Assembly: GCA_963575745.1 (NCBI GenBank)
Contig: CAUYUJ010020148.1
Location: 205,001-269,000, forward strand
Source of the DNA: Prorocentrum cordatum
Lineage: Eukaryota; Sar; Dinophyceae; Prorocentrales; Prorocentraceae
Length of the DNA: 64,000 nt
Reading direction: 5' to 3'
This document shows, in pieces, positions 20,424 through 64,000 of the stretch. Position numbers and translations under genes: made by a program. Below the pieces are notes generated by a model. It searched no databases. It had not been told where the DNA came from and was given only the letters and a program-made list of their open reading frames with translations. Position 1 is the first letter of the stretch; each line of letters begins with the position of its first letter.

Positions 20424-23400
20424 ATGGAGCAGGCCGACACACGCGACGATGTGGAACGCATGTTCGCCCTGGCTAACGAGGCCAGCCATGAGTACCATCT
20501 CACCCGGCTGCGCGACCTGCCACCTCCACCGCCAGACCACCCAAAAAAGAAGCCCCCTACCATGCACGGGCTCACACCCACGTTCGAGGAGCGACCCGCT
20601 GTCCCCCGCGCTTTTCCCACCTACGGAGCTTCCACGATCCACATGAACCGCCTTCGCAAGCTCCATCGGCAACTTTGTGAGCTGCGCTTTATCGGACAGC
20701 ACCATCATATCGATTGCCATGCTATCCCGCCGTACCTGGCGCAGCGCATCGACTGCACGTGGACTGCAGCCCGCCTTCTCTGCCACAAGCTGCGCCCCAC
20801 GGTCCTCCTGGCCTTCCCCGAGGCCTGGGCCCCCGACGTTTCAGCACCACGCGGAGACCACCTGGACCGTCTGATCCAAAACCTTGACGCCGAGCTGGCG
20901 CGACGTGCAAACCGTGTCAAAGCTGAACGCATCAAGATTTGGGCCGAGGGTGTCCGTGAGCCAAGCGGGCGAAAGGCGGCCATATACGCACGGGCCGCCG
21001 ACCGCTCGCCCACGGCGTATCTCCGCACGCCCGCCACTCCCGACGATGCTCAGCTCCACTGCGACTCCACCGCCTTCAACCCTGACCAAGCTTGTACGGA
21101 CGATAGTGATGCTGACACCGACGCTGGCGGCTTCAGCCCCAGCGACGGTAGCTCGCTCGACACGGACAACGACGAAGGCCGCACTCGTGACCCATCACCT
21201 GCCCAGGTGCCCGACGCCCTCCCCGCCAACGCCATCGTTGCCAATACCAAAGACATGCTTAAGCTCATGGTCGACACCTGGGAGCCCATCCTGGGCAGGT
21301 ACCGCGCCCGCGCAGGCCATGACGCCGAAGCTATGCCGACGTGGGCAGACTTCTACGACGAGTACCGACAAGAGCTGCCTACGCCATCACCAGCAGCCCC
21401 TTTCCACCTCACCGATGACCAACTCATCCACTTCATTCGCACCCGTTCACCGCACCGGTCGGGGGGGCTCGACGGCTGGACAACTAAGGAGGCTAAGGAG
21501 CTCCCCGACGACATCCTTCGCCTCTTTGCCAGCGTTTTACGTGCTATGCAACGCACTGGCATCATCCCAGAGCCCCTCCTTCACGTGCCAAACCCGTGCC
21601 TCCGAAAAGGCCGAGGGGAACTCCCCACGGACCAACGACTTCTCTCGGTTCTCTCCGTTTGGATGTACGCGTGGGAAGCGCCAGCCTACCGTAGCCTCAC
21701 GGACTGGCGGAAAGGATGGACCCACGCCACGAGCTTCGGCGCTGTCCCCAAAGCCACCATTGGGGACGTCAGCACCTCTCTCGCCCTGCGAATCGAGCAC
21801 GCCAGGGCTTTACTCCTCCCCTTAGCTGGTGCTGCCCTTGACCGACAGAAGTGCTTCGACTACCTCATCACGGACATCTGCCTCAACCTTGCGCTGCACG
21901 CGGGGTGCCCTCAAGACATCGTTACTGTCCGCCGAAATTTTTACAGACACCACAAACGCTACATCCGCATGAACGGAGCGTTCTCTAAGGGCTTGGCCAG
22001 GACTAACGGTCACCTCCAGGGAAGCTCGTGGTCCCTGGACGACATCAAGTTGCTCATGTGCGTGTGGACAAAGAGGCAGCATCGATACGTTCCCCGATCA
22101 CTTAGCACTACCTTTGTTGACGACAGCAACTCCACTACCCACACCGCGTCTGAGCTGCAGAAATCTCTTGACGAAACCGCCAAGTTTGATCGATTCTCAG
22201 GTCAACGCATTCACCCTGGTAAAGAGGCAGGGTGGGCGCTCACCGACGAGCTTCACGCCGCCGTTACCCAGCTCACACTGGCGGAGCGCCCCCTACGTGT
22301 GGTCGATTCCTTCAAGCTCGTCGGGAGTTACATCAACGCAGAGGCAGCGCCGGCTCCAGCCGCGCTGAACCTCACGGCCACCGCAGACGCCCGTGTACGG
22401 AGGGCGACTATCCGCCTGCCGCGCATTGGCAAGCTCCCATCGCCGATGCTTATCAAGGCGCGGCACGCCCGTTCCCTGGCTGCCAGCGTCTGCACCACGG
22501 GCACCGACATTCAAGCACCATCAGGCACAGCCAAAACTGCCTACAACCACGCCCTCAAGGCGGCTATCCGCCCCAAGGGGAACAAGTGGGTCGAGTTCTG
22601 GACTCTCATGGCCGTGTGCGTCCCAGGACACGCCCTGGATATCGACGCCATCACGCAGCGTGAAGCATTCCTGTGGCTGCGGCGACAGGTAAACCGCGAC
22701 GTTACACTCTGCGGGCTCGCCAGAGACCTTCAACACCACGTCCAGACCCTGTTTGGTGGAGGACCCGTCGGACGACTCGTCCAGTCGCTCCAGCAGCTCC
22801 GATGGACCTGGCCCACATTTGGCATCATGTACGACGACTGGGGCTGCCAGATCAGCTGGCTGAATTTACCCCAAAACGCCTTCCTACACATGCTGCGGGC
22901 CTCGCAACGCAGGGCTTTTCTGCGGAGGATCAAGCCACGGCGACACGACCTTGGCGACCTAGCCTCTGTCAGACAGGGCCTCGACCTCTTCGCCAGCACG
23001 TGGCTCGCTCGAACTAAAGGAGCAGCCAAATGCACTGCCTGGCAGCTGGCGCTCCTCCTGAACTACCTGTCGGGCGGGGACCACACCCAACAGCGACGAT
23101 CCCGATCAAACACGTCGGCAGACCCCAGCCCCATCTGCCGCTACTGCGACGAGGAAGAGGAAACTCAGGAGCACACTGTCCGCGACTGCAAGTGCTGGGC
23201 CCGAGAAAGAGTCCCTCTCACCACCCTCATCAGTGACGAGCAGTGGGCCCGTCTTCCGCCGCACACAAGACACTGCGGGCTCTTCGATGAAGACCCAGCC
23301 CTCCTCAACCTGCAGGCCGACCTCGCGAGGGACCCGCTACCTCAGCCCATACCGCGGCCCCCCCCCCTGAGGGAGATCCTGCGGCTTCAGCCCAGGACTC

Positions 23401-23492
23401 CTACACCACCTACCTTGACCACGACACTGGTTGGACATGGGTCTACGCTGCCACGGACGGTGCATGCACCAACCAAGCCATCCCATTGCTAG
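20424..23492 (+). CDS. LINE reverse transcriptase with CCHC finger, left copy
   Basis: The RT motifs occur in order: SGGLDGWTTKEAK (about 21,460); block A LDRQKCFDYL with catalytic Asp at 21840; block B RTNGHLQGSSWS (about 22,000); block C FVDD with the Asp pair at 22119-22124 (FVDD instead of the more common YADD); block D SGQRIHPGKEAGWA; block E FKLVGSYIN. A Cx2Cx8Hx4C finger (CRYCDEEEETQEHTVRDC, 23136-23189) follows, as in the C-terminal part of many LINE polyproteins. The frame is open upstream of the first ATG to about 20370, so the ATG at 20424 need not be the true start. It ends prematurely at 23492 because a C-run at about 23357-23368 is 10 long here; the right-arm copy has 8 and stays open into RNase H. 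It acts on the element's own RNA in target-primed reverse transcription. Confidence 0.85.
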   Translation: MEQADTRDDVERMFALANEASHEYHLTRLRDLPPPPPDHPKKKPPTMHGLTPTFEERPAVPRAFPTYGASTIHMNRLRKLHRQLCELRFIGQHHHIDCHAIPPYLAQRIDCTWTAARLLCHKLRPTVLLAFPEAWAPDVSAPRGDHLDRLIQNLDAELARRANRVKAERIKIWAEGVREPSGRKAAIYARAADRSPTAYLRTPATPDDAQLHCDSTAFNPDQACTDDSDADTDAGGFSPSDGSSLDTDNDEGRTRDPSPAQVPDALPANAIVANTKDMLKLMVDTWEPILGRYRARAGHDAEAMPTWADFYDEYRQELPTPSPAAPFHLTDDQLIHFIRTRSPHRSGGLDGWTTKEAKELPDDILRLFASVLRAMQRTGIIPEPLLHVPNPCLRKGRGELPTDQRLLSVLSVWMYAWEAPAYRSLTDWRKGWTHATSFGAVPKATIGDVSTSLALRIEHARALLLPLAGAALDRQKCFDYLITDICLNLALHAGCPQDIVTVRRNFYRHHKRYIRMNGAFSKGLARTNGHLQGSSWSLDDIKLLMCVWTKRQHRYVPRSLSTTFVDDSNSTTHTASELQKSLDETAKFDRFSGQRIHPGKEAGWALTDELHAAVTQLTLAERPLRVVDSFKLVGSYINAEAAPAPAALNLTATADARVRRATIRLPRIGKLPSPMLIKARHARSLAASVCTTGTDIQAPSGTAKTAYNHALKAAIRPKGNKWVEFWTLMAVCVPGHALDIDAITQREAFLWLRRQVNRDVTLCGLARDLQHHVQTLFGGGPVGRLVQSLQQLRWTWPTFGIMYDDWGCQISWLNLPQNAFLHMLRASQRRAFLRRIKPRRHDLGDLASVRQGLDLFASTWLARTKGAAKCTAWQLALLLNYLSGGDHTQQRRSRSNTSADPSPICRYCDEEEETQEHTVRDCKCWARERVPLTTLISDEQWARLPPHTRHCGLFDEDPALLNLQADLARDPLPQPIPRPPPLREILRLQPRTPTPPTLTTTLVGHGSTLPRTVHAPTKPSHC

Positions 23493-25808: not shown

Positions 25809-25914
25809 TTCCTCATATTATTTATGCTGCTAGTATTATCATCGGATAACCAATTACTTTTTGCTATTAGCATAGTTACTATTATTTCTGCTTAGCTTAG
25901 AAATTTCTAAAAGG

Positions 25915-26440
25915 ATTCAAATCCAGGCCCCGAGAGCGCAGCGGCCCACCCTCAAATCCGAGAGTATATCGCGCAGAGACGGTTCTCACGATTTGAGTCG
26001 CGCGGAGACCGTGGGATGTCTCCAAACCATTCGAGCAGATGTGTTCAAATGGTTTGGGCCTCTACGCAGAGACGGTCCCCGAGCATTTTGCGTCAGAATG
26101 TCTGCTGCATCGAATGTTTCGCACTCAAATAAATCGGCTCCGAGTCAAGTTCACGCCATCGAGACCCGAAATTAGCGCCCACAAACCATGCAGTTCAAAT
26201 GGTTTGGACTTCCACGCAGAAGCGGCTCTGAAGATGTTAGAGTAGATCCCCCCCATTATCGAATGTTCGCACCCAAATATATTCGCCTCCTGTGACGCCG
26301 CGACCATCGGGACCCGAATTAGTTATGTGTTTAGAAACTATTTGAGCAGATGGCTTGAAATAGTCGTTTTTTTCCCGCAGAGACGGTTCGGAGTCAAACG
26401 CGTTAAGTTCCTAGATTTAGTCCCTCTGAATCTAGAGACC
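25915..26440 (+). repeat. Diverged satellite of about 158 bp, block 1
   Basis: About three diverged units share the phrases CAAATGGTTTGGGCCTCTACG, CAGAGACGGTTC, AATGTTTCGCACTCAAATAA and CCATCGAGACCCGAAATTAG. The same family forms a longer block at 32,235-33,480. No coding potential. Confidence 0.75.
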
Positions 26441-26539
26441 CCCGTCAACATGTGATCTATGTCACGAATCCCACGGTGGGCAGCCGGCGCGGCGTTGGCC
26501 ATTTAAAAGTAACAATAATCGCCAACATGCTATATCATT

Positions 26540-27538
26540 ACCTAACAGCTTGTTCTGATAGGTTTCTAGTGGTGTCAAAAGAGAGCAGCAGATGACTCCA
26601 CAGGGGGGTCTGGGCGGGTGCCGGACAGGGTGCCGCAGAAGTCGTTTTAAGCCAACAATCGAACCATTCGTGCTCTTCGACCTCCCAGAACTCCATTCCC
26701 GGGCCACATTCTGAATGCACGGAAGCCAATGTAAGCCCACTTCGTGCCTTTCGATTCCCTGAACTCCTTGCCCGGGCCTATTTGAATTGTCCGGAGCCAA
26801 CTGTAGGCCCACTTCGTGCTCTAGGCCACTTCGTGCTTCTTCGACTTCCCAGAAAACTACATTCCCGGGCCACATTGTGGATGCCCGGAGCCAACTGTAG
26901 GCCATTTCGTGGTCCTGTGTCCTTCAAGTTCCCAGAACTCCCATTCGGGCCACATTTTGAATGCCCGGAGCCACTGTTGGCCACTTCGTGTTTCTGCTAT
27001 TTTCCCAGGAATTCCACCCTGGGCCACATTTGGAATGCGGAGGCAGGCTGCTTCTGATGCTGCGGCCCGAGGCAGGCTGAGGCTGAGGTTGAGGCTGAGG
27101 CAGGCTCAGGCTGAGGCAGGCTGAGGCTGAGGCCGAGGCTGCAGGCAGACTGAGGCTGATGCAGGAGCAGGCTGAGGCTGAGGCTGAGGCAGGCTGAAGC
27201 TGAGGCTGAGGCTGATGCTGAGGCAGGCTGAGGCTGAGGCTGAGGCTGATGCAGGCTGTGGCTGAGGCAGGCTGAGGCTGAGGCCGAGGCTGAAGGCAGA
27301 CTGAGGCTGAGGCTGAAGCAGGCTGAGGCTGAGGCTGAGGCAGGCTGAGGCTGAGGCAGGCTGAGGCTGAGGTTGAGGCAGGCTGAGGCTGAGGCTGTGA
27401 CTGCGACTGCCGTTGCCGCTGCGACTGTCATCGCGAATGCGACTACGACTGCGAGAACAGCAGAATTCTACAACTGGATTTTCATCTGAATCTTAAGGGG
27501 AATGCTTTCATATATGCTTCTACACATCGCTGTTAGGT
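26540..27538 (+). mobile_element. MITE-like element with ACCTAACAGC termini, copy L1
   Basis: The element opens with ACCTAACAGC at 26540 and closes with the inverse GCTGTTAGGT at 27529-27538. Inside are a shared entry segment (GATAGGTTTCTAGTGGTGTC), a 72-bp tandem unit (about 26,640-27,035, phrase CCCGGAGCCAACTGTAGGCC), a GGCTGA minisatellite (about 27,055-27,400) and a shared exit segment (GCGAATGCGACTACGACTGC). The same order is found in the copy at 34,231, which is twice as long because its minisatellite is expanded. It encodes no transposase, so it would depend on one elsewhere. No clear target-site duplication is visible. Confidence 0.65.
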
Positions 27539-27848
27539 TGCTTCGCCGGGCTAATTTTTATTGAAGGGCACGAATTCTATATAGGCATGAGCGGCTGGTT
27601 CTAGTTGGAATTATGGTTGCGCCTGCTTCACAGGCAAGGAAAAACAAAGATAAATATACACATGAAGAAATGCATGCAAAGAAGATGGAAGAAAATAACA
27701 TATGAAAGCGGTAACAAAGAGAAACCGAACAATTAATTATCCCAGTGCGACCCGACCTAGGAGTTGGAGCCTCTAGGAAAGCAACATTAGTAGGAACGGT
27801 AAACGCCGCCCCCCTCCTTCTCCTCATCGTCGTAGTTGTAGCAATAGC
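27539..27848. other. No gene recognised
   Basis: AT-richer sequence with short frames only. It contains a short inverted repeat, GCCTGCTTCACAGGC. Conserved inverted at about 58,010-58,315. Confidence 0.4.
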
Positions 27849-27852
27849 GGTC

Positions 27853-27907
<55 letters not shown>

Positions 27908-27937
27908 CAATAATAATAGTAGTAGTAGCAATAATAA

Positions 27938-27979
<42 letters not shown>

Positions 27980-28160
27980 ATGCGGTGCTGCGCTATGATC
28001 TGCTATGCTATGCTATGCGATGCTATGTTATGCTGTGCTATGCTGCGCAATGCTATGCTGGGCTCGGCTAGGCCAGGCCAGGCTATGCGATGCTATGCTA
28101 TGGTTTGCTGCGCTTTGCTATATTGCGCTATGCTATGCGATGCGATGCTATGCTATGCTT
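27849..28160 (+). repeat. (GTA)n followed by (GCTAT)n microsatellites
   Basis: GTA trinucleotides at 27849-27977 are interrupted by AATAATA, then pentanucleotide GCTAT/GCGAT variants run to about 28160. Poly-Val and Cys/Tyr/Ala-Met frames across them are artefacts. Confidence 0.92.
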
Positions 28161-28725
28161 TTGCTTTGCCTTCGCATTTGCCTTCACATTTGCCTTTGCG
28201 TTTGCTTTTGCTTGGCGCCCAGGGAGCGCAACTGGGGGAACCGCGCGTTTGCTTTTACTTTGCTGCTGCTCTTGCTCGGCCCCCAGGGGGCCGGGTGAAC
28301 CGCCCGGGGCGGGTTCCACTGCCCGGCCCCTCTAAGCCAAAGCGGCAAGAACCCTTCTAGGCAGAGCCCAGGCAGGGCAAAACAACAAACAGGTGACGAG
28401 AGAGGAGAAGTTGTAGATGAATTTAGTATTCCTACATTCTCTTTGAAGATAAGAACATTTACTTTGTTCTAGGAATCTCGATTTAGAGTTTCTTGTGGAG
28501 ATCTCATCATGATAAGATGTGCGCAGAGTTATGTCCGTTGTCATTCGGTTCAGTCTTTCCGTAACGCATTTTGTGCCATGGCTCATTTTCCAGGCGGCAG
28601 TAAGTGTTTTATTCCCAACCCTCCTTGGTTGGGTATTCGTTTTGAATAGAGCAGTGTGGTCGCGTCCTTCCTCCTCCCGCCTCCCGCCTCTTTCCTGCCT
28701 CTGTCTGTCTTGCCTGCGGGGGGCT
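28161..28725. other. No gene recognised
   Basis: The first part repeats TTTGCCTTCGCATTTGCC-like phrases (about 28,160-28,215). The remainder is unique, with frames under 140 codons present on both strands. Mirrored at 57,166-57,715. Confidence 0.4.
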
Positions 28726-30655
28726 GCGATCTGTGAAACTGTCGCCACTTTCGAGGCCTGCTGGGGGGTCCTGCGTAGAGGGTAATCGCGGCGGATTCAA
28801 ATTAGACCTCGCCATCCCTGGGGGGCTGCGATCTGTGAAACTGTCGCCACTTTCGAGGCCTGCTGGGGGGTCCTGCATAGAGGGCAATCGCGGCGGATTC
28901 AAATTAGACCTCGCCATCCCTGGGGGGCTGCGATCTGTGAAACTGTCGCCACTTTCGAGGCCTGCTGGGGGGCCCAGCACAGTGACGCCACACGCAGATT
29001 CAAAAGTAGACCTCGCCATCCCTGGGGGGGGTGCGATCTGTGAAACTGTCGCCACCCCCCCCCCCCACCCCCCCTACCCCCCCCCACCCCGCCCCCCCCA
29101 CCCCCCCCCCTCAAAACAAAAATACAAAAAAAATATTTAATAAACAATAATAAAAAAAAATAGAAACGATCTACATTAAGTGGTGGGTATTGCCATAGAG
29201 TGGTAATCGCGGCGGATTCAAATTAGACCTCGCCATCCCTGGGGGGCTTCGATCTTGGAAAACAGTCGCCACTTTCGAGGCCTGCTGGGGGTCCGGGCAG
29301 TTTTTTTAGGGGGGGATGGGGGGTAATTCGCGGCGGATTCTAATTAGACCTCGCATTCCCTGGGGGGCTGCGATCTGTGAAACTGTCGCCACTTTCGAGG
29401 CCTGCTGGGGGGTCCTGCATAGAGGGTAATCGCGGCGGATTCAAATTAGACCTCGCCATCCCTGGGGGGCTGCGATCTGTGAAACTGTCGCCACTTTCGA
29501 GGCCTGCTGGGGGGTCCTGCAGAGAGGGTAATCGCGGCGGAGTCAAATTAGACCTCGCCATCCCTGGGGGGCTGCGATCCCTGTGGGGGCTGTGCGATCG
29601 CTGAAACTGTCGCCATTTTCGAGGCCTGCTGGGGGGTCCAGCATAGAGGGTAATCGCGGCAGATCCAAATTAGACCTCGCCCTCCCTGGGGGGCTGCGAT
29701 CTTTGAAACTGTCGCCACTTTCGAGGCCTGCTGGGGGGTCATACATAAAGGGTAATCGCGGCAGATTTAAATTAGACCTCGCCATCCCTGGGGGGCTGCG
29801 ATCTGCGAAACTGTCGCCATTTTCGAGGCCTGCTGGGGGGCCCAGCACAGTGAGGGCCACGCGCGGATTCAAATTAGACCTCGCCATCCCTGGGGGGCTG
29901 CGATCTGCGAAACTGTCGCCATTTTCGAGGCGTGCTGGGGGGCCCAGCACAGTGAGGGCCACGCGCCGATTCAAATTAGACCTCGCCATCCCTGGGGGGC
30001 TGCGATCTGCGAAACTGTCGCCATTTTCGAGGCCGGCCTGATGGGGGGCCCAGCACAGTGAGGGCCACGCGCGGATTCAAATTAGACCTCGCCATCCCTG
30101 GGGGGCTGCGATCTGCGAAACTGTCGCCATTTTCGAGGCTTGCTGGGGGGCCCAGCACAGTGAGGGCCACGCGCGGATTCAAACTAGACCTCGCCATCCC
30201 TGGGGGGCTGCGATCTGCGAAACTGATGCGCCATTTTCGAGGCCTGCTGGGGGGCCCAGCACAGTGAGGGCCACGCGCGGATTCAAATTAGACCTCGCCA
30301 TCCCTGGGGGGCTGCGATCTGCGAAACTGTCGCCATTTTCGAGGCCTGCCGGGGGGCCCAGCACAGTGGGGGCCACGCGCAGATTCAAATTAGACCTCGC
30401 CATCCCTGGGGGGCTGCGATCTGCGAAACTGTCGCCATTTTCGAGGCCTGCTGGGGGGCCCAGCACAGTGAGGGCCACGCGCGGATTCAAATTAGACCTC
30501 GCCATCCCTGGGGGGCTGCGATCTGCGAAACTGCCGCCATTTTCGAGGCCTGCTGGGGGGCCCAGCACAGTGAGGGCCACGGGCAGATTCAAATGAGACC
30601 TCGCCATCCCTGCGGGGCTGCGATCTGTGAACCTGTCGCCACTTTCGAGGCCTGC
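28726..30655 (+). repeat. 102-bp tandem array, left arm
   Basis: The unit boundaries I measured (GATCTG at 28728, 28830, 28932 and 29035) give 102-103 bp. Two subtypes are present. Type B (to about 29,800) has GCCACTTTCGAGG and ATAGAGGGTAATCGCGG; type A (29,800-30,655) has GCCATTTTCGAGG and CACAGTGAGGGCCACGCG. As 102 is 34 codons, long open frames run through the array on both strands; they have no other sign of being genes. Confidence 0.93.
29046..29205 (+). repeat. C-rich and A-rich interruption inside the 102-bp array
   Basis: A run of C with single A or T interruptions (about 29,047-29,110) is followed by AT-rich sequence with A-runs. The right-arm array shows no counterpart, so it arose or was lost after the arms separated. 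Confidence 0.7.
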
Positions 30656-32234
30656 TGTGATCCCCGTTTTCGAAGTGGCTAGGAGTGCTCAGGAATTGTA
30701 AATCATCAGCTTTATCAAGCCCTTTTCCTGTAGCCAGTGTCCTGCGAGTCTCCCGAATTCCGTCTGCAGACATATGTAACCCTCGCTCCGTCATCGCCCC
30801 CTTATAAAGTATCCTAAACTATTTGCGCCCCGCTTTTGCGCAGGGGTTGGGTACGTCGCCAAGGTAGTTTTAGATTATTATTCAAAGCGGCGTCAGGGCA
30901 TTTGAAATGAGGAGAAGGAGAGTCATAATGCAACAACTGCGATAACGAATGTGAAGGACAAGAGAGTTCAAGACCCGAGAGGCATACCAGGTGACGAATT
31001 CATTGACAGATGCGTTATACATTGCTTGTATTGGATTATTGCGCAGACTTTTCAAATTTCTTCAGAGGGCAACATTGGAATATAATCAGCTCTGGGTCAC
31101 AGGAAAGAAAATTGTCAGGCTCTAAGCATCGCCGGAAGAGGCAACGCGAATCGATTTCTTTAGTTTTACGGGATGTGCTCAGCCGCTTGAATTTCCGCAC
31201 GCCGACAATGGACTATGGCGTTGCAGTTGCCCCCGTGAAGATACGCTAAGCAAGACCTGCATGCTCGATGTCTTATCGTATTGCGCTGTAGTTCCTCAAC
31301 ATCAGCATCATGATGTCACGCGGGCTCATGGCGCAAAATGGAAGATAGTGACGTCTGGGTTTGAAACAGCATCTGAGCTGTTAGCGGCTATCACATTAAC
31401 ATTATGGATTTTACCAGGTCGACGGATTTGATTCAGTGAGCCATTACGAAATTCGATCAGAGTAGTTGTTGCATTGAGGATTGCATGGAACATGTGGAAA
31501 TAATTGTTGGTGAACATTGCCAGGGCGAGAATGATTGAAAAAACAACTGCATCCAAGGTCGCGCGGTTATAGCATGAATCCGTCATCTTTGCAAGGTTCT
31601 TCTGACCGTTGTATTATGCGTGTTGCCCCCGTAGTTTACTATGTAATGTTGGGCCACGTTCCAAGCAATCCTGTTCAGCTTGCACAGTTTTCATTGAAGA
31701 GCATTCAACATGTTGGTCATTTCCTGTGTCAACATGCCAGATGGACGTTTCCATGATAGGGCTTAGCCGACACAATCAGTTGCGATATTTGGAATGAGTC
31801 AAAGCGCGCCACCTCGAGACGCAACACATTGGCGGCATCTCGGAGATCCGATGCAGATTGGAGAGTTAAAAACGGGAGATCGATGCAAATGTTTTTAAAC
31901 CCATTCTCCGACAGCTGGAACGAAGAGACGCTGACCAAGATGCAGGCGAAGTGATGGTCAAAGTGTTCAAGATGCATAGAAATATGTAGACGAGTTTTTG
32001 GAATGCGAATTTTGCCGCAAGATCAGCGCAGTCGACGAGCGCGGAAAGTTTCTAGAGGAGCGTGCTTATATTCCAAGAGTTTCACTGAGTCTGAAGTGGA
32101 ATTGCTTAAGAATTCCCCGACATTCGCTTGGAATTGTTGTGGGCACGAGAGGTTTTGGAAGGACTACTTTTCTCGTTTCCTGCATTCAATGTATTTTTGA
32201 TCTCGCTTGCGTTGCCTCCGCAACAAAAAAAAAC
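30656..32234. other. No gene recognised (unique, AT-richer)
   Basis: About 1.6 kb of lower-GC sequence, without repeats. No frame exceeds about 90 codons with convincing composition. Conserved as an inverted copy at 53,816-55,380. Confidence 0.4.
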
Positions 32235-33480: not shown

Positions 33481-33689
33481 TCGAACATTTATGTTTGCGC
33501 GCTGCCCTGCCCCGGTGCGCAGGGCGCAGAATAATGCATATTCGCATCTGCATATGCGATGATAGCACTAGTTTTCGTCATGGAAGATACGCAGAGCATT
33601 AGATTGTTTCTTCGCTGTTGTTTTTCTTGCATTGTTCAAGTCATCCTCATTGTCCTCGTTTTTTCTTTTTTCCGTTGGCTCCGTCGGCC

Positions 33690-34190
33690 TTGCCAAGTCT
33701 GTCCGCTCTGTCCGCTCTGTCGGCTCTGTTCGCTCTGCCCGCTATGTCCGCTCTGTCAGTTCTGCCCGCTCTGTCCGCTCTTCCCGCTCCGCCCACCCGC
33801 CACGCAGCCGCCGTTCGTGCCGCCCTGCTCCAGGAACCCATCCCGAAAGATCGATCTCCGCTCTGTCCGCTGCGTCCGCTTTGTCCGCTCTTTCCGCTCT
33901 GTCCGTTGTGTCAGCTCTGTCCGCTCCGTCCGCGCTGTCGGCTCTGTCCTCTCTGTCGGCTCTGTCCGCCCTGTCCGCTCTCCGCTCTGTCCGCGTGTTC
34001 GTTTTGTCCGATCTGTCCGCTCTGTCGGCTCCGTCGGCTCTGTCGGCGCCCGATTTGTCGGCTCTGTCGGCTCTCTCCGTCCGCGCTGTCTGCTCCGTCG
34101 ACGAAGAAGACAGAGCCGTTGTTCGCGCCGCCCTGCTCCGGGAGTCCGACCCAAGAGATCGCGTTCCGCTCTGTCGGCTCTGCGTTCGCG
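33690..34190 (+). repeat. Minisatellite of TCTGTCCGC units
   Basis: Degenerate 9-bp units (CTCTGTCCG / CTCTGTCGG) are broken by two GCCCTGCTCC segments. The Ser-Ala-Leu and Arg-Ala-Asp repeat frames are artefacts of the unit length being a multiple of three. Confidence 0.85.
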
Positions 34191-34230
34191 CCCCCGTTCC
34201 CTATGAGAGGCGGGGGCCCCACCTCTTTTT

Positions 34231-36172: not shown

Positions 36173-36189
36173 TGCTCTGCCGGGATAAT

Positions 36190-48719: not shown

Positions 48720-48734
48720 AAACCGCTTTGAGGA

Positions 48735-49219: not shown

Positions 49220-49264
<45 letters not shown>

Positions 49265-49810: not shown

Positions 49811-49849
49811 AACAAAGAAATATAATCAACATATCATCCCGGCAGAGCA

Positions 49850-51820: not shown

Positions 51821-51849
51821 AAAAAGAGGCGGGGCCCCCGCCTCTCATA

Positions 51850-52370
51850 GGGAACGGGGGCGTGAACGCAGAGCCGACAGAGCGGAACGCGATCTCTTGG
51901 GTCGGACTCCCGGAGCAGGGCGGCGCGAACAACGGCTCTGTCTTCTTCGTCGGCGGAGCAGACAGTGCGGACGGAGAGAACCGACAGAGCCGACAAATCG
52001 GGCGCCGACAGAGCCGACGGAGCCGACAGAGCGGACAGATCGGACAAAACGAACATGCGGTCAGAGCGGAGAGCGGACAGGGCGGACAGAGCCGACAGAG
52101 AGGACAGAGCCGACAGTGCGGACGGAGCGGACAGAGCTGACACAGCGGACAGAGCGGAAAGAGCGGACAAAGCGGACGCAGCGGACAGAGCGGAGATCGA
52201 TCTTTCGGGATGGGTTCCTGGAGCAGGGCGGCACGAACGGCGGCTGCGTGGCGGGTGGGCGGAGCGGGAAGAGCGGACAGAGCGGGCAGAACTGACAGAG
52301 CGGACATAGCGGGCAGAGCGAACAGAGCCGACAGCGCGGACAGAGCGGACAGACCTGGCAAGGCCGACGG
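51850..52370 (-). repeat. Minisatellite of GCGGACAGA units, right arm
   Basis: Inverted copy of the 9-bp minisatellite at 33,690-34,190. Confidence 0.85.
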
Positions 52371-52569
52371 AGCCAACGGAAAAAAAAAAAAACGAGGACA
52401 ATGAGGATGACTTGAACAACGCAAGAAAAACAACAGCGAAGAAACAATCTAATGCTCTGCGTATCTTCCATGACGAAAACTAGTGCTATCATCGCATATG
52501 CAGATGCGAATATGCATTATGCTGCGCCCTGCGCACCGGGGCAGGGCAGCGCGCAAACATAAATGTTCG

Positions 52570-53815
52570 AAAAAGGAAGACACTGGCAACGAATTTAGCT
52601 GAATGCGAAACGTTCCGTAGTGCAGGGGGGCCCGGACGCAAGGTCTCAAGACCGTCTCTGCCTGAAGCCCAAACCATTTAAACGCATTTGCTCAAATGGC
52701 TTGAGAACGCCAATTTCGGATCTCAATGGTCTCAACGTAACTCGAGGCTTACATGTATGAATGCGAAACGTTCGATGGCGCAGAAATGTGGACGCAAGGT
52801 CTCGAGAACCGTCTCTGCATAAAAGCCCAAACTATTTTAACACATCTGCTCAGAAGGTTTATAGACGCCAGCTTCGGGTCTCAATGGCGTCGACGTCACT
52901 CGAGGCTAATTTCTTTGAGTGCGAAACGTTCGATTGCGCAAGAATCCCGACGCAAGGTCTCGAGAAGCGTCTCTGCATAGAGGCTCAAACAATTTGAAAA
53001 CATATGCTCAAATGTTTTGCGGGCACCAGTTTCGGGTCTCAACGGTCTCAACGTCGCTCGAAACTAATTAATCTGAGTGCGAAGCGTTTGATTGCGCAGG
53101 GGCCCTGGCGCAGGGCGTCGAGAACCGTCTCTGCGTAGGGTCCCAAACCATTTGGGCACATCTACTACAATGGCTTTGGTCTCAACGTCGCTCGAGGCTA
53201 GTTTATCTGAGCGCGAAGCGTTTGGTGCGGCAGGGGGCCCTGGCGCAAGGTGTCGAGAACCGTCTCTGCCTAGCGCCGAAACCATTTGAACGCATCTGCC
53301 CATATGGCTTGCGGAAGCCAGTTTCCTCAATCGTCTGAACGTCACTGAAACTAATTTACCTGAGTGCGAGACGTTCGATAGTGCGAGAATCCTGACGCAA
53401 GGTCTCGAGGGCGGTCTGCGCCTGAAACCCAAACGGTTTGAACGCGTCTGCTCAAATGGTTTGAAGGCACCAACTTCGGGTCTCAATGGTCTCAACGTAA
53501 CTCGAGGCAAATTTATTCGAACGCAAAGCGTTCGATTCTGCAGAAAACCGACGCAAGGTCTCGACAAGCGTGCGCGCATGGGAACTTCACTCACTTCAGC
53601 GTTTGTACTCGAACGGGTTATGGGCGTCAATTTCAGATTATGGGTGCCAACTTCGGGTCTGATTTGAATGCGGCGCGTTTGATAGCGCAGCGAATTCCAC
53701 CTCGCCGTGAAACCGATTGAACGCATCTGCTGCGCTCTCGTGTCTAGAGTCGGGCCGGCTGCGCTCTCGGGTCTGGGTTTGGGCCCGCTGCGCTCTCGGG
53801 CCTGGATTTGGACCT
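52570..53815 (-). repeat. Satellite of about 158 bp, block 2, right arm
   Basis: Inverted copy of 32,235-33,480; same number of units and only point differences. Confidence 0.8.
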
Positions 53816-55380
53816 GTGATTTTTTTTTGTTGCGGAGGCAACGCAAGCGATATCAAAAATACATTGAATGCAAGAAACGAGAAAAGTAGTCCTTCCAAAA
53901 CTTCTCGTGCCCACAACAATTCCAAGCGAATGTCGGGGAATTCTTAAGCAATTCCACTTCAGACTCAGTGAAACTCTTGGAATATAAGCACGCTCCTCTA
54001 GAAACTTTCCGCGCTCGTCGACTGCGCTGATCTTGCGGCAAAATTCGCATTCCAAAAACTCGTCTACATTTTTCTATGCATCTTGAACACTTTGACCATC
54101 ACTTCGCCTGCATCTTTGTCAGCGTCTCTTCGTTCCAGCTGTCGGAGAATGGGTTTAAAAACATTTGCATCGATCTCCCGTTTTTAACTCTCCAATCTGC
54201 ATCGGATCTCCGAGATGCCGCCAATGTGTTGCGTCTCGAGGTGGCGCGCTTTGACTCATTCCAAATATCGCAACTGATTGTGTCGGCTAAGCCCTATCAT
54301 GGAAACGTCCATCTGGCATGTTGACACAGGAAATGACCAACATGTTGAATGCTCTTCAATGAAAACTGTGCAAGCTGAACAGGATTGCTTGGAACGTGGC
54401 CCAACATTACATAGTAAACTACGGGGGCAACACGCATAATACAACGGTCAGAAGAACCTTGCAAAGATGACGGATTCATGCTATAACCGCGCGACCTTGG
54501 ATGCAGTTGTTTTTCAATCATTCTCGCCCTGGCAATGTTCATCAAAAATTCTTTCCACCTGTTCCATGCAATCCTCAATGCAACAACTACTCTGATCGGA
54601 TTTCGTAATGGCTCACTGAATCAAATCCGTCGACCTGGTAAAATCCACAATGTTAGTGTGATAGCCGTTAACAGCTCAGATGCTGTTTCAAACCCAGACG
54701 TCACTATCTCCCATTTTGCGCCATGAGCCCGCGTGACATCATGATGCTGATGTTGAGGAACTACAGCGCAATACGATGAGACATCGAGCATGCAGGTCTT
54801 GTTTAGCGTATCTTCACGGGGGCAACTGCAACGCCATAGTCCATTGTCGGCGTGCGGAAATTCAAGCGGCTGAGCACATCCCGTAAAACTAAAGAAATCT
54901 ATTCGCGTTGCCTCTTCCGGCGATGCTTAGAGCCTGACAATTTTCTTTCCTGTGACCCAGAGCTGATTATATTCCAATGTTGCCCTCTGAAGAAATTTGA
55001 AGTCCGCGCAATAATCCAATACAAGCAATGTATAACGCATCTGTCAATGAATTCGTCACCTGGTATGCCTCTCGGGTCTTGAACTCTCTTGTCCTTCACA
55101 TTCGTTATCGCAGTTGTTGCATTATGACTCTCCTTCTTCTCATTTCAAATGCCCTGACGCCGCTTTGAATAATAATCTAAAACTACCCTGGCGACGTACC
55201 CAACCCCTGCGCAAAAGCGGGGCGCAAATAGTTTAGGATACTTTATAAGGGGGCGATGACGGAGCGAGGGTTACATATGTCTGCAGACGGAATTCGGGAG
55301 ACTCGCAGGACACTGGCTACAGGAAAAGGGCTTGATAAAGCTGATGATTTACAATTCCTGAACACTCCTAGCCACTTCGA
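53816..55380. other. No gene recognised (mirror of 30,656-32,234)
   Basis: Unique lower-GC sequence. The short frames of the left arm are partly broken by substitutions here, which argues against any of them being genes. Confidence 0.4.
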
Positions 55381-57165
55381 AAACGGGGATCACAGCAGGC
55401 CTCGAAAATGGCGACAGTTTCGCAGATCGCAGCCCCCCAGGGATGGCGAGGTCTAATTTGAATCTGCGCGTGGCCCTCACTGTGCTGGGCCCCCCAGCAG
55501 GCCTCGAAAATGGCGACAGTTTCGCAGATCGCAGCCCCCCAGGGATGGCGAGGTCTAATTTGAATCCGCGCGTGGCCCTCACTGTGCTGGGCCCCCCAGC
55601 AGGCCTCGAAAATGGCGACAGTTTCGCAGATCGCAGCCCCCCAGGGATGGCGAGGTCTAATTTGAATCTGCGCGTGGCCCTCACTGTGCTGGGCCCCCCA
55701 GCAGGCCTCGAAAATGGCGACAGTTTCGCAGATCGCAGCCCCCCAGGGATGGCGAGGTCTAATTTGAATCCGCGCGTGGCCCTCACTGTGCTGGGCCCCC
55801 CAGCAGGCCTCGAAAATGGCGACAGTTTCGCAGATCGCAGCCCCCCAGGGATGGCGAGGTCTAATTTGAATCCGCGCGTGGCCCTCACTGTGCTGGGCCC
55901 CCCAGCAGGCCGGCCTCGAAAATGGCGACAGTTTCGCAGATCGCAGCCCCCCAGGGATGGCGAGGTCTAATTTGAATCTGCGCGTGGCCCTCACTGTGCT
56001 GGGCCCCCCAGCAGGCCTCGAAAATGGCGACAGTTTCGCAGATCGCAGCCCCCCAGGGATGGCGAGGTCTAATTTGAATCCGCGCGTGGCCCTCACTGTG
56101 CTGGGCCCCCCAGCAAGCCTCGAAAATGGCGACAGTTTCGCAGATCGCAGCCCCCCAGGGATGGCGAGGTCTAATTTGAATCCGCGCGTGGCCCTCACTG
56201 TGCTGGGCCCCCCAGCAGGCCTCGAAAATGGCGACAGTTTCGCAGATCGCAGCCCCCCAGGGATGGCGAGGTCTAATTTGAATCTGCCGCGATTACCCTC
56301 TATGCTGGCCCCCCAGCAGGCCTCGAAAGTGGCGACAGTTTCACAGATCGCAGCCCCCCAGGGAGGCGAGGTCTAATTTGAATCCGCCGCGATTACCCTC
56401 TATGCTGGACCCCCCAGCAGGCCTCGAAAGTGGCGACAGTTTCACAGATCGCAGCCCCCCAGGGATGGCGAGGTCTAATTTGAATCCGCCGCGATTACCC
56501 TCTATGCAGGACCCCCCAGCAGGCCTCGAAAGTGGCGACAGTTTCACAGATCGCAGCCCCCCAGGGATGGCGAGGTCTAATTTGAATCCGCCGCGATTAC
56601 CACTGTGCTGGGCCCCCCAGCAGGCCTCGAAAGTGGCGACAGTTTCACAGATCGCAGCCCCCCAGGGATGGCGAGGTCTAATTTGAATCCGCCGCGATTA
56701 CCCACTATGCAGGGCCCCCCAGCAGGCCTCGAAAGTGGCGACAGTTTCACAGATCGCAGCCCCCCAGGGATGGCGAGGTCTAATTTGAATCCGCCGCGAT
56801 TACCCTCTATGCTGGACCCCCCAGCAGGCCTCGAAAGTGGCGACAGTTTCACAGATCGCAGCCCCCCAGGGATGGCGAGGTCTAATTTGAATCCGCCGCG
56901 ATTACCCTCTATGCAGGACCCCCCAGCAGGCCTCGAAAGTGGCGACAGTTTCACAGATCGCAGCCCCCCAGGGATGGCGAGGTCTAATTTGAATCACCCA
57001 CTGTGCTGGGCCCCCCAGCAGGCCTCGAAAGTGGCGACAGTTTCACAGATCGCAGCCCCCCAGGGATGGCGAGGTCTAATTTGAATCCGCCGCGATTACC
57101 CTCTATGCAGGACCCCCCAGCAGGCCTCGAAAGTGGCGACAGTTTCACAGATCGCAGCCCCCCAG
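55381..57165 (-). repeat. 102-bp tandem array, right arm
   Basis: About 17-18 units. Type A (GCCATTTTCGAGG complement) fills 55,381-56,280 and type B fills 56,280-57,165. The order and position of the switch are as in the left arm. No C-rich interruption is present. Confidence 0.93.
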
Positions 57166-57715
57166 GCAAGACAGAAAGAGGCAGGAAAGAGGCGGGAGGC
57201 GGGAGGAGGAAGGACGCGACCACACTGCTCTATTCAAAACGAATACCCAACCAAGGAGGGTTGGGAATAAAACACTTACTGCCGCCTGGAAAATGAGCCA
57301 TGGCACAAAATGCTTTACGGAAAGACTGAACCGAATGACAACGGACATAACTCTGCGCACATCTTATCATGATGAGATCTCCACAAGAAACACTAAATCG
57401 AGATTCCTAGAACAAAATAAATGTTCTTATCTTCAAAGAGAATGTAGGAATACTAAATTCATCTACAACTTCTCCTCTCTCGTCACCTGTTTGTTGTTTT
57501 GCCCTGCCTGGGCTCTGCCTAGAAAGGTTCTTGCCGTCTTGGCTTAGAGGGGCCGGGCAGTGGAGCCCGCCCCGGGCGGTTCACCCGGCCCCCTGGGGGC
57601 CGAGCAAGAGCAGAAGCAAAGTAAAAGCAAACGCGCGGTTCCCCCAGTTGCGCTCCCTGGGCGCCAAGCAAAAGCAAACGCAAAGGCAAATGTGAAGGCA
57701 AATGCGAAGGCAAAG
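57166..57715. other. No gene recognised (mirror of 28,161-28,725)
   Basis: Unique sequence plus AAAGGCAAATGCGAAGGC-type phrases at the far end. No gene. Confidence 0.4.
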
Positions 57716-57945
57716 CAAAAGCATAGCATAGCATCGCATAGCATAGCGCAATATAGCAAAGCGCAGCAAACCATAGCATAGCATCGCATAGCCTGGCCTG
57801 GCCTAGCCGAGCCCAGCATAGCATTGCGCAGCATAGCACAGCATAGCATAGCATCGCATAGCATAGCATAGCAGATCACAGCGCAACACCGCATCCACTA
57901 CTACTACTACTACTACTAGTACTACTACTACTATTACTACTACTG

Positions 57946-57994
<49 letters not shown>

Positions 57995-58003
57995 CGCTAT
58001 TGC
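57716..58003 (-). repeat. (ATAGC)n and (CTA)n microsatellites, right arm
   Basis: Pentanucleotide at 57,716-57,890 and CTA trinucleotide at 57,898-58,003. The trinucleotide tract is shorter than its left partner and interrupted differently. Confidence 0.92.
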
Positions 58004-58315
58004 TACAACTACGACGATGAGGAGAAGGAGGGGGGCGGCGTTTACCGCTCCTACTAATGTTGCTTTCCTAGAGGCTCCAACTCCTAGGTCGGGTCGCACT
58101 GGGATAAGTAATTGTTCGGCTTCTCTTTGTTACCGCTTTCATCTGTTATTTTCTTCCATCTTCTTTGCATGCATTTCTTCATGTGTATATTTATCTTTGT
58201 TTTTCCTTGCCTGTGAAGCAGGCGCAACCATAATTCCAACTAGAACCAGCCGTTCATGCCTATATAGAACTCGTGCCCTTCAATAAAAATTAGCCCGGCG
58301 AAGCAACCTAACAAC

Positions 58316-59235
58316 GATGTGTAGAAGCATATATGAAAGCATTCCCCTTAAGATTCAGATGAAAATCCAGTTGTAGAATTCTGCTGTTCTCGCAGTCGTA
58401 GTCGCATTCGCGATGACAGTCGCAGCGGCAACGGCAGTCGCAGTCACAGCCTCAGCCTCAGCCTGCCTCAGCCTCAGCCTCAGCCTGCCTCAGCCTCAGC
58501 CTGCCTCAGCCTCAGCCTCAGCCTGCTTCAGCCTCAGCCTCAGTCTGCCTTCAGCCTCGGCCTCAGCCTCAGCCTGCCTCAGCCTCAGCCTGCATCAGCC
58601 TCAGCCTCAGCCTCAGCCTGCCTCAGCATCAGCCTCAGCCTCAGCCTGCCTCAGCCTCAGCCTCAGTCTGCTTCAGCCTCAGCCTCAGTCTGCCTTCAGC
58701 CTCGGCCTCAGCCTCAGCCTGCCTCAGCCTCAGCCTGCCTCGGCCGCAGCATCAGCCTGCCTCAGCATTCAAAATGTGGCCCAGGAGTGGAATTCTGGGA
58801 AATAGAAGAACACGAAGTGGCCTACAGTTGGCTCCGGGCATTCAAAATGTGGCCCGGGAATGGAGTTCTGGGAACTTGAAGACCACGAAATGGCCTACAG
58901 TTGGCTCCGGGCATCCAAAATGTGGCCCGGGAATGGAGTTCTGGGAAGTCGAAGAGCACGAAGTGGCCTACAGTTGGCTCCGGGCATTCAAAATGTGGCC
59001 CGGGAATGGAGTTCTGGGAAGTCGAAAAGCACGAAGTGGCCTACAGTTGGCTCCGGGCATTCAGAATGTGGCCCGGGAATGGAGTTCTGGGAGGTCGAAG
59101 AGCACGAATGGTTCGATTGTTGGCTTAAAACGACTTCTGCGGCACCCTGTCCGGCACCCGCCCAGACCCCCCTGTGGAGTCATCTGCTGCTCTCTTTTGA
59201 CACCACTAGAAACCTATCAGAACAAGCTGTTAGGT
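58316..59235 (-). mobile_element. MITE-like element, right copy of L1
   Basis: Bounded by ACCTAACAAC at 58316 (one base changed from the consensus terminus) and GCTGTTAGGT at 59226-59235. Minisatellite about 58,445-58,770, 72-bp units about 58,775-59,110. About 80 bp shorter than L1. Confidence 0.65.
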
Positions 59236-59369
59236 AATGATATAGCATGTTGGCGATTATTGTTACTTTTAAATGGCCAACGCCGCGCCGGCTGCCCACC
59301 GTGGGATTCGTGACATAGATCACATGTTGACGGGGGTCTCTAGATTCAGAGGGACTAAATCTAGGAACT

Positions 59370-59880
59370 TAACGCGTTTGACTCCGAACCGTCTCTGCGG
59401 GAAAAAAACGACTATTTCAAGCCATCTGCTCAAATAGTTTCTAAACACATAACTAATTCGGGTCCCGATGGTCGCGGCGTCACAGGAGGCGAATATATTT
59501 GGGTGCGAACATTCGATAATGGGGGGGATCTACTCTAACATCTTCAGAGCCGCTTCTGCGTGGAAGTCCAAACCATTTGAACTGCATGGTTTGTGGGCGC
59601 TAATTTCGGGTCTCGATGGCGTGAACTTGACTCGGAGCCGATTTATTTGAGTGCGAAACATTCGATGCAGCAGACATTCTGACGCAAAATGCTCGGGGAC
59701 CGTCTCTGCGTAGAGGCCCAAACCATTTGAACACATCTGCTCGAATGGTTTGGAGACATCCCACGGTCTCCGCGCGACTCAAATCGTGAGAACCGTCTCT
59801 GCGCGATATACTCTCGGATTTGAGGGTGGGCCGCTGCGCTCTCGGGGCCTGGATTTGAATCCTTTTAGAAATTTCTAAGC
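59370..59880 (-). repeat. Satellite of about 158 bp, block 1, right arm
   Basis: Inverted copy of 25,915-26,440. Confidence 0.75.
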
Positions 59881-60007
59881 AGAAATAATAGTAACTATGC
59901 TAATAGCAAAAAGTAATGGTTATCCGATGATAATACTAGCAGCATAAATAATATGAGGAAGGGGGAGGGGGGTCCACGCCGGAGAGGGAAATTGACAGAG
60001 GAACTGC

Positions 60008-63600: not shown

Positions 63601-64000
63601 TGCCTCTTTGTCCACACGCACATGAGCAGCTTGATGTCGTCCAGGGACCACGAACTTCCCTGGAGGTGACCGTTAGTCCTGGCCAAGTCCTTAGAGTACG
63701 CTCCGTTCATGCGGATGTAGCGTTTGTGTTGTCTGTAGAAATTTCGGCGGACAGTGGCGACGTCTTGAGGGCACCCCGCGTGCAGCGCAAGGTTAAGGCA
63801 GATGTCCGTGATGAGGTAGTCGAAGCACTTCTGTCGGTCAAGGGCAGCTCCAGCTAAGGGGAGGAGTAAAGCCCTGGCATGCTCGATGCGCAGGGCGAGA
63901 GAGGTGCTGACATCCCCAATGGTGGCTTTGGGAACAGCGCCGAAGCTCGTGGCGTGGGTCCATCCTTTCCGCCAGTCCGTGAGGCTACGGTAGGCTGGCG
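60642..64000 (-). CDS. LINE RT-CCHC-RNase H polyprotein, right copy, 5' end outside window
   Basis: The frame stays open from the window edge to the stop at 60642. The first in-window ATG (63710) lies inside the RT domain and is not the true start. Motifs in order on minus: block A LDRQKCFDYL, then TNGHLQGSSWS, FVDD, SGQRIHPGKVAGWA, FKLVGSYIN, finger CRYCDEEEETQEHTVRDC, RNase H ATDGACTN / AETLAIV / VFVDNQAVVDG / FNRQADALA, and the acidic and Pro/Ala-rich tail. The run before RNase H has 8 C (10 in the left copy), which keeps RT and RNase H fused and shows the ancestral layout. By eye about twenty residues differ from the left copy, for example GKVAG for GKEAG and FLCLRR for FLWLRR. Confidence 0.87.
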   Translation of the reverse strand, partial: PAYRSLTDWRKGWTHATSFGAVPKATIGDVSTSLALRIEHARALLLPLAGAALDRQKCFDYLITDICLNLALHAGCPQDVATVRRNFYRQHKRYIRMNGAYSKDLARTNGHLQGSSWSLDDIKLLMCVWTKRQHRYVPRSLSTTFVDDSNSTTHTASELQKSLDETAKFDRFSGQRIHPGKVAGWALTDELHAAVTQLTLAERPLRVVDSFKLVGSYINAEAAPAPAALNLTATADARVRRATIRLPRIGKLPSPMLIKARHARSLAASVCTTGTDIQAPSGTAKTAYNHALKAAIRPKGNKWVEFWTLMAVCVPGHALDIDAITQREAFLCLRRQVNRDVTLCGLARDLQHHVQTLFGGGPVGRLVQSLQQLRWTWPTFGIMYDDWGCQISWLNLPQNAFLHMLRASQRRAFLRRIKPRRHDLGYLASVRQGLDLFASTWLARTKGAAKCTAWQLALLLNYLSGGDHTQQRRSRSNTSADPSPICRYCDEEEETQEHTVRDCKCWARERLPLTTLISDDQWARLPPHTRHCGLFDEDPALLDLQADLARDPLPQPIPRPPPEGDPAASAQDTYTTYLDHDTGWTWVYAATDGACTNQAIPLLARAGYGVYYGIDHRMNYSARVHGLTQNAQVAETLAIVHLTACAERPVHVFVDNQAVVDGFQSIIDGHPAPQGTHAELWEKIHRCVMAKPNMFRVEKIASHLGDMGIDLGLIGPIAEEFNRQADALATMAARTHNLPDHIVEAAKTRHRQATVLHGVAVAIYERRHRTLPLPHRRAGFTAAELSKMEPNPLLTDQAPPAAGPFIPQDPDELWAEAQRATLDEQEDDPFGFGGGLDFLDDGPASANPAPSGNLSTPTATPTPRATSHPHGDIAHRQDADDDLADPLGLSGSIDDAPPTPHAADDAAPSRRHPTTRPTSEPSHGIMIGPTVPPTPSPHQRQPAGAAPAPPQGTEPVRPSRPVHASIVAGREDAALPTSRGVALAAPALGPRVTHQSPIKGDGRQHTECRTALVHHLARRTDDLVPPTRPAAAGTEQPPLTDRETELSQAMAALQQRCAALAADLAAAQARQGPLLQRLHRAGRAFAELLTPSPDGATPPLTIQAMLSSLRGAPPGVPR

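Follow-up and report, generated by a model that had tools for sequence, protein, structure and literature searches.

Fold-back inversions in yeast, as set out in excerpts of PMC7467729 and PMC10622511, rely on short hairpins and reach completion through secondary rearrangements that homology mediates. The locus described here, in the Prorocentrum cordatum genome assembly, shares with them an inverted copy of a chromosome segment and perhaps also a short inverted repeat at the axis and an end joined through homology, in yeast often that of repeat elements; unlike them, it appears to be natural, old (1.2-1.5% diverged) and algal, and it is known from an assembly alone. It also resembles the mammalian sex-chromosome palindromes (PMC8981503 and PMC3723533, in part) in its multi-kb inverted repeats of high arm identity; those palindromes keep >99% identity by conversion, whereas here identity is 98.5% and the axis has no spacer. 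The third likeness is to the fold-back artefact reads covered in part of PMC12870357, which show the same near-perfect mirror symmetry and absence of a spacer; in contrast to such reads, which are copies of one molecule, the arms here show differences that have evolved and that extend as far as the axis.

We consider that the locus probably arose long ago as a fold-back inverted duplication in the nuclear genome, its free end having joined elsewhere through homology between LINE copies. If so, this genome of unusual chromosomes preserves a fold-back inversion that arose in nature and can be dated, and in which the retrotransposon join is still readable; a palindrome of tens of kb would have persisted there long enough to diverge by >1%, and LINE copies would have a part in shaping the genome. 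Should the cause instead be an assembly join, the locus is a warning on hybrid assemblies of repeat-rich genomes.

Extent and axis of the palindrome

The window, the 64,000-nucleotide stretch analysed as a whole, spans positions 205,001-269,000 of a 761,948-bp contig and contains no N. BLAST of the window against itself (E = 0, pieces up to 12.9 kb) reveals inverted, mirror-ordered homology between 21,679-43,038 and 64,000-43,064, that is, a palindrome of two long arms in opposite orientation about a single axis. This self-comparison and the axis test below agree with an earlier note, according to which everything right of about 21.7 kb recurs inverted in mirror order about a centre at 43,051/43,052. 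The repeat leaves the window, as the note had also said, and could be traced in the parent contig to arms of ~34 kb each; the start that it gave for the palindrome, 21,680, was wrong, for it only mirrors the edge of the window. Inverted homology reaches its left limit at contig position 213,829 (window 8,829, ~8.83 kb) and its right limit at contig 281,694 (window ~76.7 kb). The left arm (8,829-43,051, + strand; ~34.2 kb) runs through a LINE-like element and a 17-kb core to the axis and was defined by inverted BLAST and by MAFFT alignment to contig 281,694-248,052. The right arm (~33.6 kb) occupies 43,052-64,000 (- strand) within the window and extends 12.7 kb past it, to contig 281,694. Both limits lie within CT repeats, where two LINE-like elements have their 5' ends; beyond these, the left and right sequences differ and are not mirror images. 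Order and orientation are mirrored throughout the arms, and the lengths of repeat arrays differ between them.

With the axis set at 43,051/43,052, the 45 innermost base pairs include 43 that match; no other axis tried from 43,030 to 43,075 gave more than 21 of 45. The axis region (43,009-43,094) consists of 43-bp arms on either side of this point with one mismatch, an AT-rich middle and zero unpaired spacer. The product of a fold-back is symmetric by nature, so that a pre-existing short repeat is indistinguishable from it in these 43 bp. Adjoining the axis, the left arm alone carries a T-run and TTATA expansion (42,896-43,008, + strand), which amounts to ~110 extra bases.

An assembly join at the axis would have brought two diverged copies of one region (paralogues from elsewhere, or alleles if the culture was not haploid) into head-to-head contact via the short palindrome or a fold-back read. 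The ~86-bp self-complementary stretch may have been a node at which the assembly graph could turn round, and fold-back reads do occur in long-read data: part of PMC12870357 gives 0.55-0.6% of ONT genomic reads and virtually none in a PacBio HiFi set, a comparison that apparently leaves aside older PacBio genomic read types. An assembly that is likely this one was made by MaSuRCA from Illumina and PacBio data, according to an excerpt of PMC10666404. Arguing for a correct axis are the absence of N from the window, the unlike contig flanks on both sides, and the description of the assembly as haploid in its likely source paper; together with the divergence and the genome searches given below, these lead us to regard a join at the axis as unlikely, though a serious competitor. 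A hairpin-ended or amplified extrachromosomal molecule is suggested by shape alone; the arms end in different flanks inside a 762-kb contig and are 1.5% different, which makes such a molecule highly improbable.

Divergence of the arms and relatives of the core

Outside tandem repeats, the arms differ by substitution at 1.48% (207 in 14,001 aligned sites), with a transition-to-transversion ratio of 140:67 and 16 indel events, just 10 of them single-base. The CpG transition rate is raised (44/2,296 vs 96/11,703). Differences reach the axis, with 12 transitions of the '+' sign and one transversion in the innermost 500 unmasked sites; arms that are 1.48% different all the way to the axis cannot be a single molecule read twice. 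We did not find the arms that a fold-back artefact would leave, identical save for read error chiefly near the axis. The few single-base indels, the synonymous excess and the CpG excess rule out that the arms are identical or that raw read error accounts for their differences throughout. Divergence with a signature of selection and a CpG excess is biological, and it also counts against a join at the axis insofar as a single-molecule fold-back is insufficient to produce it. Of the origins that the earlier note had left side by side, a real inverted duplication (from amplification, hairpin-ended molecules or sister-chromatid fusion) or an assembly join, an old embedded duplication is favoured, and the divergence disfavours fresh amplification, a hairpin-ended molecule read twice and a simple fold-back read. 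Divergence is uneven along the arms (variance/mean 2.7), and the longest identical tract measures 824 bp; both features could reflect gene conversion, and selection or ancestry predict them too.

The left core (25,811-43,051, + strand; 17 kb) and the right core (43,052-59,958, - strand) differ by 1.16% at 25,811-41,000. We searched the 4.13-Gb assembly with four core queries, which covered about 5 of the 17 kb, and at these four places the right core is the sole close long match of the left. The arms are each other's closest relatives for all four core queries and for a 3' piece of the LINE, and not for a piece of its reverse transcriptase (RT). For three core queries (851-1,501 bp), the other arm matches at 99% and the next long matches at 79-88%; pieces of high-copy repeats, merely 165-190 bp, match at 95-99%. 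Apart from its own sequence, recovered in either orientation (100% and 87%), the fourth query, at the axis, gave seven hits no longer than 102 bp; neither inner half has a further match >102 bp in the assembly (7/7 candidates scored), which again speaks against two copies having been joined there. The arms have different flanks in the assembly, and their ends sit in a high-copy LINE; the differing flanks, with no other close long core match at four places in 4.13 Gb, favour an old embedded duplication.

The most conserved part of the core (37,300-39,552, + strand) has 13 differences over 753 codon triplets (~0.6%). It probably belongs to a gene family, with 12 dispersed copies of 38,000-39,500 in the genome at 85-88%; no Pfam family scored above its cut-off. 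Rfam at gathering thresholds and tRNA scans returned nothing, no relic of the dinoflagellate spliced leader was found at up to three mismatches, and a 13-base part of that leader gave two matches versus 1.5 expected by chance. No copies of core pieces occur in the 59 kb of left flank compared, part of it as N; the right flank holds two, at 79-82%.

The LINE-like element and the proposed origin

At each of its outer ends, the palindrome stops at the 5' end of a LINE-like retrotransposon of ~16 kb. The left element (9,110-25,752, + strand) has endonuclease (EN), RT and RNase H signals in order, CT-rich ends and a high copy number; the right element enters the window with its 3' part (60,006-64,000, - strand), its 5' end lying outside, near contig 281.7 kb. 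The 3' junction of the LINE with the core is common to both arms and the 5' flanks are unlike, from which it follows that one arm switches LINE copy, or is mis-assembled there.

Codon comparisons and ancestry tests bear on this switch. Within the RT portion (20,424-23,357, + strand), the arms differ mostly synonymously (59 synonymous to 29 nonsynonymous), and the synonymous rate of the RT ORF is 6.9% vs 1.16% for the core (Fisher P = 1.2e-22); for LINE ORFs a-d, it is 2.2% vs 1.16% (P = 8.5e-5). Judging by these codon counts, the differences between the two LINE copies in the RT part are selection-filtered. The 3' part of the LINE, at 1.9% synonymous and 1.1% nonsynonymous, shows no difference from the core (P = 0.14 and 0.89), and its dN/dS of 0.56 is indistinguishable from 1 (P = 0.17). 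Because synonymous divergence is uneven by ORF (1.8-6.9%), the switch point within the LINE is loosely placed. ORFs a, b and d terminate at end codons that both arms share, which accounts for the one stop in each of three right-arm LINE frames; the compared codons of the right-arm LINE are otherwise free of stops. Ancestry was tested at two places in the element, with 40 matches scored in each search, out of 1,866 and 1,981 candidates; all 40 match at 97-100%, both arms included. With the RT query (21,700-23,300), 20 of the 38 other scored genome copies outscore the right arm. With the 3' portion (23,800-25,390, + strand), the right arm ranks first among the 39 other matches scored, by a narrow margin (2,784 vs 2,766 bits). 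LINE ancestry therefore differs between the two tested parts of the element, and the synonymous rates and the ancestry tests rule out that the core and the entire LINE were simply duplicated together.

We propose that a short, AT-rich inverted repeat was where the chromosome broke or stalled, and that the exposed strand folded back and primed copying of the core, at least 17 kb, and of the 3' part of the LINE. Inside the LINE, the copied end would have been attached, by homology, to another copy of the element that had a flank of its own; this would have stabilised the product, and the arms would afterwards have diverged as chromosomal paralogues. This sequence of break and fold-back priming presupposes an assembly that is correct at the axis, as we infer it to be, and the right arm would be the original. 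The axis may also be real and the outer ends an assembly jump inside the LINE, in which case the true palindrome may be longer or otherwise flanked. Homology stops at the 5' end of each LINE, two parts of the element are unlike in ancestry, and near-identical copies (97-100% for 40/40 scored matches, the arms among them) make a LINE of 16 kb a place where assemblers jump; however, a real LINE-mediated join predicts the same facts, and yeast fold-back inversions mostly end through homology (PMC7467729, in part). We consider such a jump somewhat unlikely.

Neither the whole RT ORF nor the EN part had a match in protein searches, and a PDB search with the RT protein gave two that are not meaningful (E = 0.8 and 0.95). 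A viral or phage origin was rejected, the RT protein being without a match in phages or viral contigs. A 290-residue piece found 14 relatives, 13 at 49-89% identity and one at 22%; none of these proteins bears a name.

One-sign transitions beside the axis

In the innermost 1.1 kb of the left arm (41,748-42,819, + strand) and its mirror on the right (43,169-44,276, - strand), all 18 transitions have one sign, with T on the left and C on the right, or G on the left and A on the right. Across 41,701-43,038, these 18 compare with 5.0 expected, and the opposite sign occurs once vs 5.1 expected; the pattern was spotted by eye before testing, and its statistics are post hoc. All 18 are of the G-T wobble type on the continuous + strand, and 9 of them fall at CpG. 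Over the whole arms, the differences have no strand bias (56:59 outside the inner run), and sign runs are no fewer than in shuffles.

Plain divergence does not predict such a zone. Read error could still explain it, and strand-specific errors of a fold-back read would lend some weight to a join at the axis. Within the fold-back duplication that we favour, the innermost 1.1 kb of each arm might conceivably be a fossil of a hairpin stage, a speculative and rather improbable reading in which mismatches would arise in a hairpin-capped duplex of one folded strand and replication through the cap would then fix them. Alternatively, the zone might reflect a long + strand hairpin RNA that tolerates only wobble-compatible changes; the one-sign excess, which goes beyond the shortage of the opposite sign, speaks less for this hairpin RNA.

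Extent and divergence of the inverted arms

The palindrome lies on a contig of 761,948 bp, of which the window takes up 205,001-269,000, in an assembly of 4,128,499,153 bases (21,875 contigs), and the window has a GC content of 59.4% by base counts; the available portions of PMC10666404 describe the P. cordatum CCMP1329 assembly as 4.15 Gb in 22,724 scaffolds with a mean GC of 59.7%, haploid and repeat-rich, and built with MaSuRCA from Illumina and PacBio data. The centre proposed in the earlier note, at 43,051/43,052, holds: the left arm mirrors the right there, and 43 of the 45 innermost base pairs are complementary. The left limit proposed with it, 21,680, is only the mirror image of the window edge; when contig positions 155,001-329,000 (less N-masked parts) were compared, inverted homology ran from contig 213,829 to 281,694, ~34 kb per arm. 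From outside to inside, each arm comprises a ~16-kb LINE-like retrotransposon and then a 17-kb core (left 25811..43051, right 43052..59958). Both outer ends of the homology fall in CT repeats at the LINE 5' end; these CT tracts align to each other (81% over 447 bp), and the flanks beyond them show no mirror symmetry. The structure is probably a large inverted duplication, a kind already known, and it works like a product of fold-back, a likeness rather than a proven membership. The literature searched, of partial coverage, held no report of large palindromes in dinoflagellate nuclear DNA.

When the arms inside the window were aligned globally, 20,281 positions matched, and they differed by 504 substitutions and 75 indel events, with tandem repeats holding many of these differences. 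Masking of tandem arrays leaves 207 substitutions at 14,001 aligned sites (1.48%; 140 transitions, 67 transversions), and 10 of the 16 indel events that remain involve a single base; the transition rate is 1.9% at CpG versus 0.8% at other sites. Positions 25,753-25,803, a C-rich tract, hold a 14-column cluster of differences that is partly misalignment; this cluster is counted within the 207 and was left out of the sign counts, so that 133 of the 140 transitions were scored for sign. Substitutions per 500 masked-alignment sites have a mean of 7.4 and a variance/mean of 2.7, and tracts of 824, 726 and 602 bp lack any arm difference. The 824-bp tract (25,895-26,719), in which a divergence of 1.48% predicts ~12 differences, may reflect either gene conversion or a chance of ancestry. 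Separately, G44 at 36,734 in the left arm mirrors C44 at 49,221 in the right, the lengths being equal though homopolymers usually vary.

Divergence does not drop nearer the axis, where the innermost 500 unmasked sites hold 13 differences. A single molecule read twice would match itself there save for read error. According to the available portions of PMC12870357, which concern three PacBio samples, fold-back artefact reads occur in ONT data, PacBio HiFi and Mas-Seq are virtually without them, and their frequency in Iso-Seq is 0.03%.

The LINE-like element and its ancestry

The outer element is called LINE-like for its domain order, CT-rich ends and copy number, all family matches being below cut-off: Exo_endo_phos for the endonuclease (E 3.3e-5; 24.2 bits, cut-off 24.5), RNase H (E 5.3e-4) and, weakly, RT and zf-RVT (E 0.05-0.06). 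A 290-residue RT piece has 14 relatives. Long open frames of 385, 460, 1,391, 1,190, 1,022 and 517 codons lie in more than one reading frame across 9,110-25,752. All 40 genome matches scored (40/40, both arms counted) are at 97-100%, and the unusually long element appears, by these near-identical copies, to have been recently active. Because the junction of the LINE 3' end with the core is common to both arms, at the same place, the insertion is older than the duplication; the sequences past the LINE 5' ends differ.

Compared arm against arm, LINE ORFs a-d carry 64 synonymous differences (2,909 sites) and 50 nonsynonymous ones (6,997 sites), and the RT ORF (20424..23357, +) carries 59 (852 sites) and 29 (2,076 sites), respectively. 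The summed dN/dS is 0.27 (P 8e-21), and the ten values from the two other frames range from 0.79 to 5.84. No stops occur inside the compared codons of the right-arm ORFs (5 gapped codons skipped); ORFs a, b and d each show a single stop, and this is the end codon common to both arms. Synonymous rates exceed core divergence (97/8,393 sites) both in ORFs a-d (P 8.5e-5) and in the RT ORF (P 1.2e-22), and the LINE 3' part, with 10/523 synonymous and 13/1,217 nonsynonymous differences, does not differ from the core. For left LINE positions 23,800-25,390, the right arm is the top other match, at 2,784 bits versus 2,766 for the next (best 40 of 1,981 candidates); for 21,700-23,300, it is outscored by 20 of 38 other copies and tied by 3 (best 40 of 1,866 candidates).

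The simplest account is that ancestry switches within the LINE, at a loosely placed point near 23.3-23.8 kb. Per-ORF synonymous divergence varies along the element between 1.8% and 6.9%, an unevenness that counts against a clean two-part picture. Among the 7 differing RT residues covered by relatives, the left arm is favoured at 499 and 500 and the right at 520 and, mostly, 601; at 509, 523 and 751 the relatives clearly back neither arm. An assembly jump within the LINE is a possible rival to a real join there; it would shift the outer ends and leave the axis in place, and is compatible with a real axis.

Relatives of the core and the probable donor arm

The core contains satellites, other sequence and a probable gene. 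In genome searches, which skip simple repeats and very common words, the best 40 of 1,644 candidates for query 25,850-26,700 comprised the two arms (99-100%), two copies in the right flank (81-82%) and 36 rows that covered only its final ~165 bp. That piece (26,531-26,700) recurs at 96-98% at at least 36 other loci and adjoins a complex 73-93-bp repeat and a GGCTGA-type array present twice per arm. For query 30,700-32,200, the best 40 of 1,273 candidates comprised the two arms (99-100%), two copies in the right flank (79%), 11 more at 69-74% and 25 rows that covered only its first ~170-190 bp. The ~180 bp at 30,700-30,884 recur at 95-99% at at least 25 other loci and then stop, as if a high-copy element ended there; a 102-bp satellite array occupies 28,718-30,883, with its mirror at ~55,167-57,166. 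For query 38,000-39,500, all 15 candidates were scored: the two arms (99-100%), one copy at 66% and, at 85-88%, 12 dispersed copies, of which two lie ~10 kb apart on contig C16178. The surrounding 37,300-39,552, in which no Pfam family passed its own cut-off, is a probable gene family. By these searches, the cores are the closest pair within an older dispersed family at the tested places.

Axis query 42,500-43,600 matched itself in both orientations, at 100% and, because a T expansion lowers identity, at 87%; its 7 further matches were each at most 102 bp (7/7 candidates scored). Two diverged copies joined at the axis are a possible alternative to a true palindrome, and are not exclusive of a jump within the LINE. 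Since the axis search gave no other match above 102 bp, such a join would require each copy's real continuation to be absent or to start at the axis itself.

The right flank holds two diverged copies of core pieces, oriented like the right arm. These copies (loci L010-L011) lie just beyond that arm at contig 282.4-290.5 kb, ~5.9 kb apart, at 79-82%. In the 59 kb compared on the left (contig 155,001-214,150, less N-masked parts), nothing matched the core over 150 bp at E 1e-10, and across contig 1-155,000 (less N-masked parts) the only core matches of at least 400 bp lie near 8-10 kb, to repeat parts of the core. Sequence upstream of the right LINE has two matches in the right-flank array, 1,058 bp at 80% and 734 bp at 77%, in part of low complexity; upstream of the left LINE there is a single weak match (272 bp at 62.5%). 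On this evidence the donor is probably the right arm, with the left as its inverted copy.

Proposed events and one-sign transitions at the axis

We infer the following events behind the observed structure, the arm divergence, the pairing of cores at the tested places and the difference in LINE ancestry. Fold-back at an AT-rich short inverted repeat would have primed synthesis, the core and the LINE 3' part would have been copied, and a join by homology within the LINE would have ended the process. For yeast, the available portions of PMC7467729 and PMC10622511 describe hairpin stems down to 4 bp, give replication of a hairpin-capped end as one possible route, and attribute secondary rearrangements mostly to homologous recombination.

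By sign, 74 of the 133 scored transitions are L=T/R=C or L=G/R=A (left/right arm base) and 59 are opposite. The innermost 18 (41,748-42,819) are all of the first sign (exact P 9.2e-6), and a run of at least 18 of one sign arose in 29 of 50,000 shuffles; the pattern was spotted by eye before testing, so these and the following P values are post hoc. The remaining 115 transitions divide 56:59, with no clustering by sign. Relative to expectation from the outer arms, zone 41,701-43,038 holds 18 transitions of the first sign versus 5.0 (P 4.8e-6), 1 of the opposite sign versus 5.1 (P 0.036) and 4 transversions versus 5.0. Possible sources of the pattern are hairpin-stage mismatches, strand-biased deamination, RNA pairing and strand-specific read error around the axis; the last of these would favour an artefact. 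CpG sites account for 9 of the 18 innermost transitions and 35 of the 115 others.
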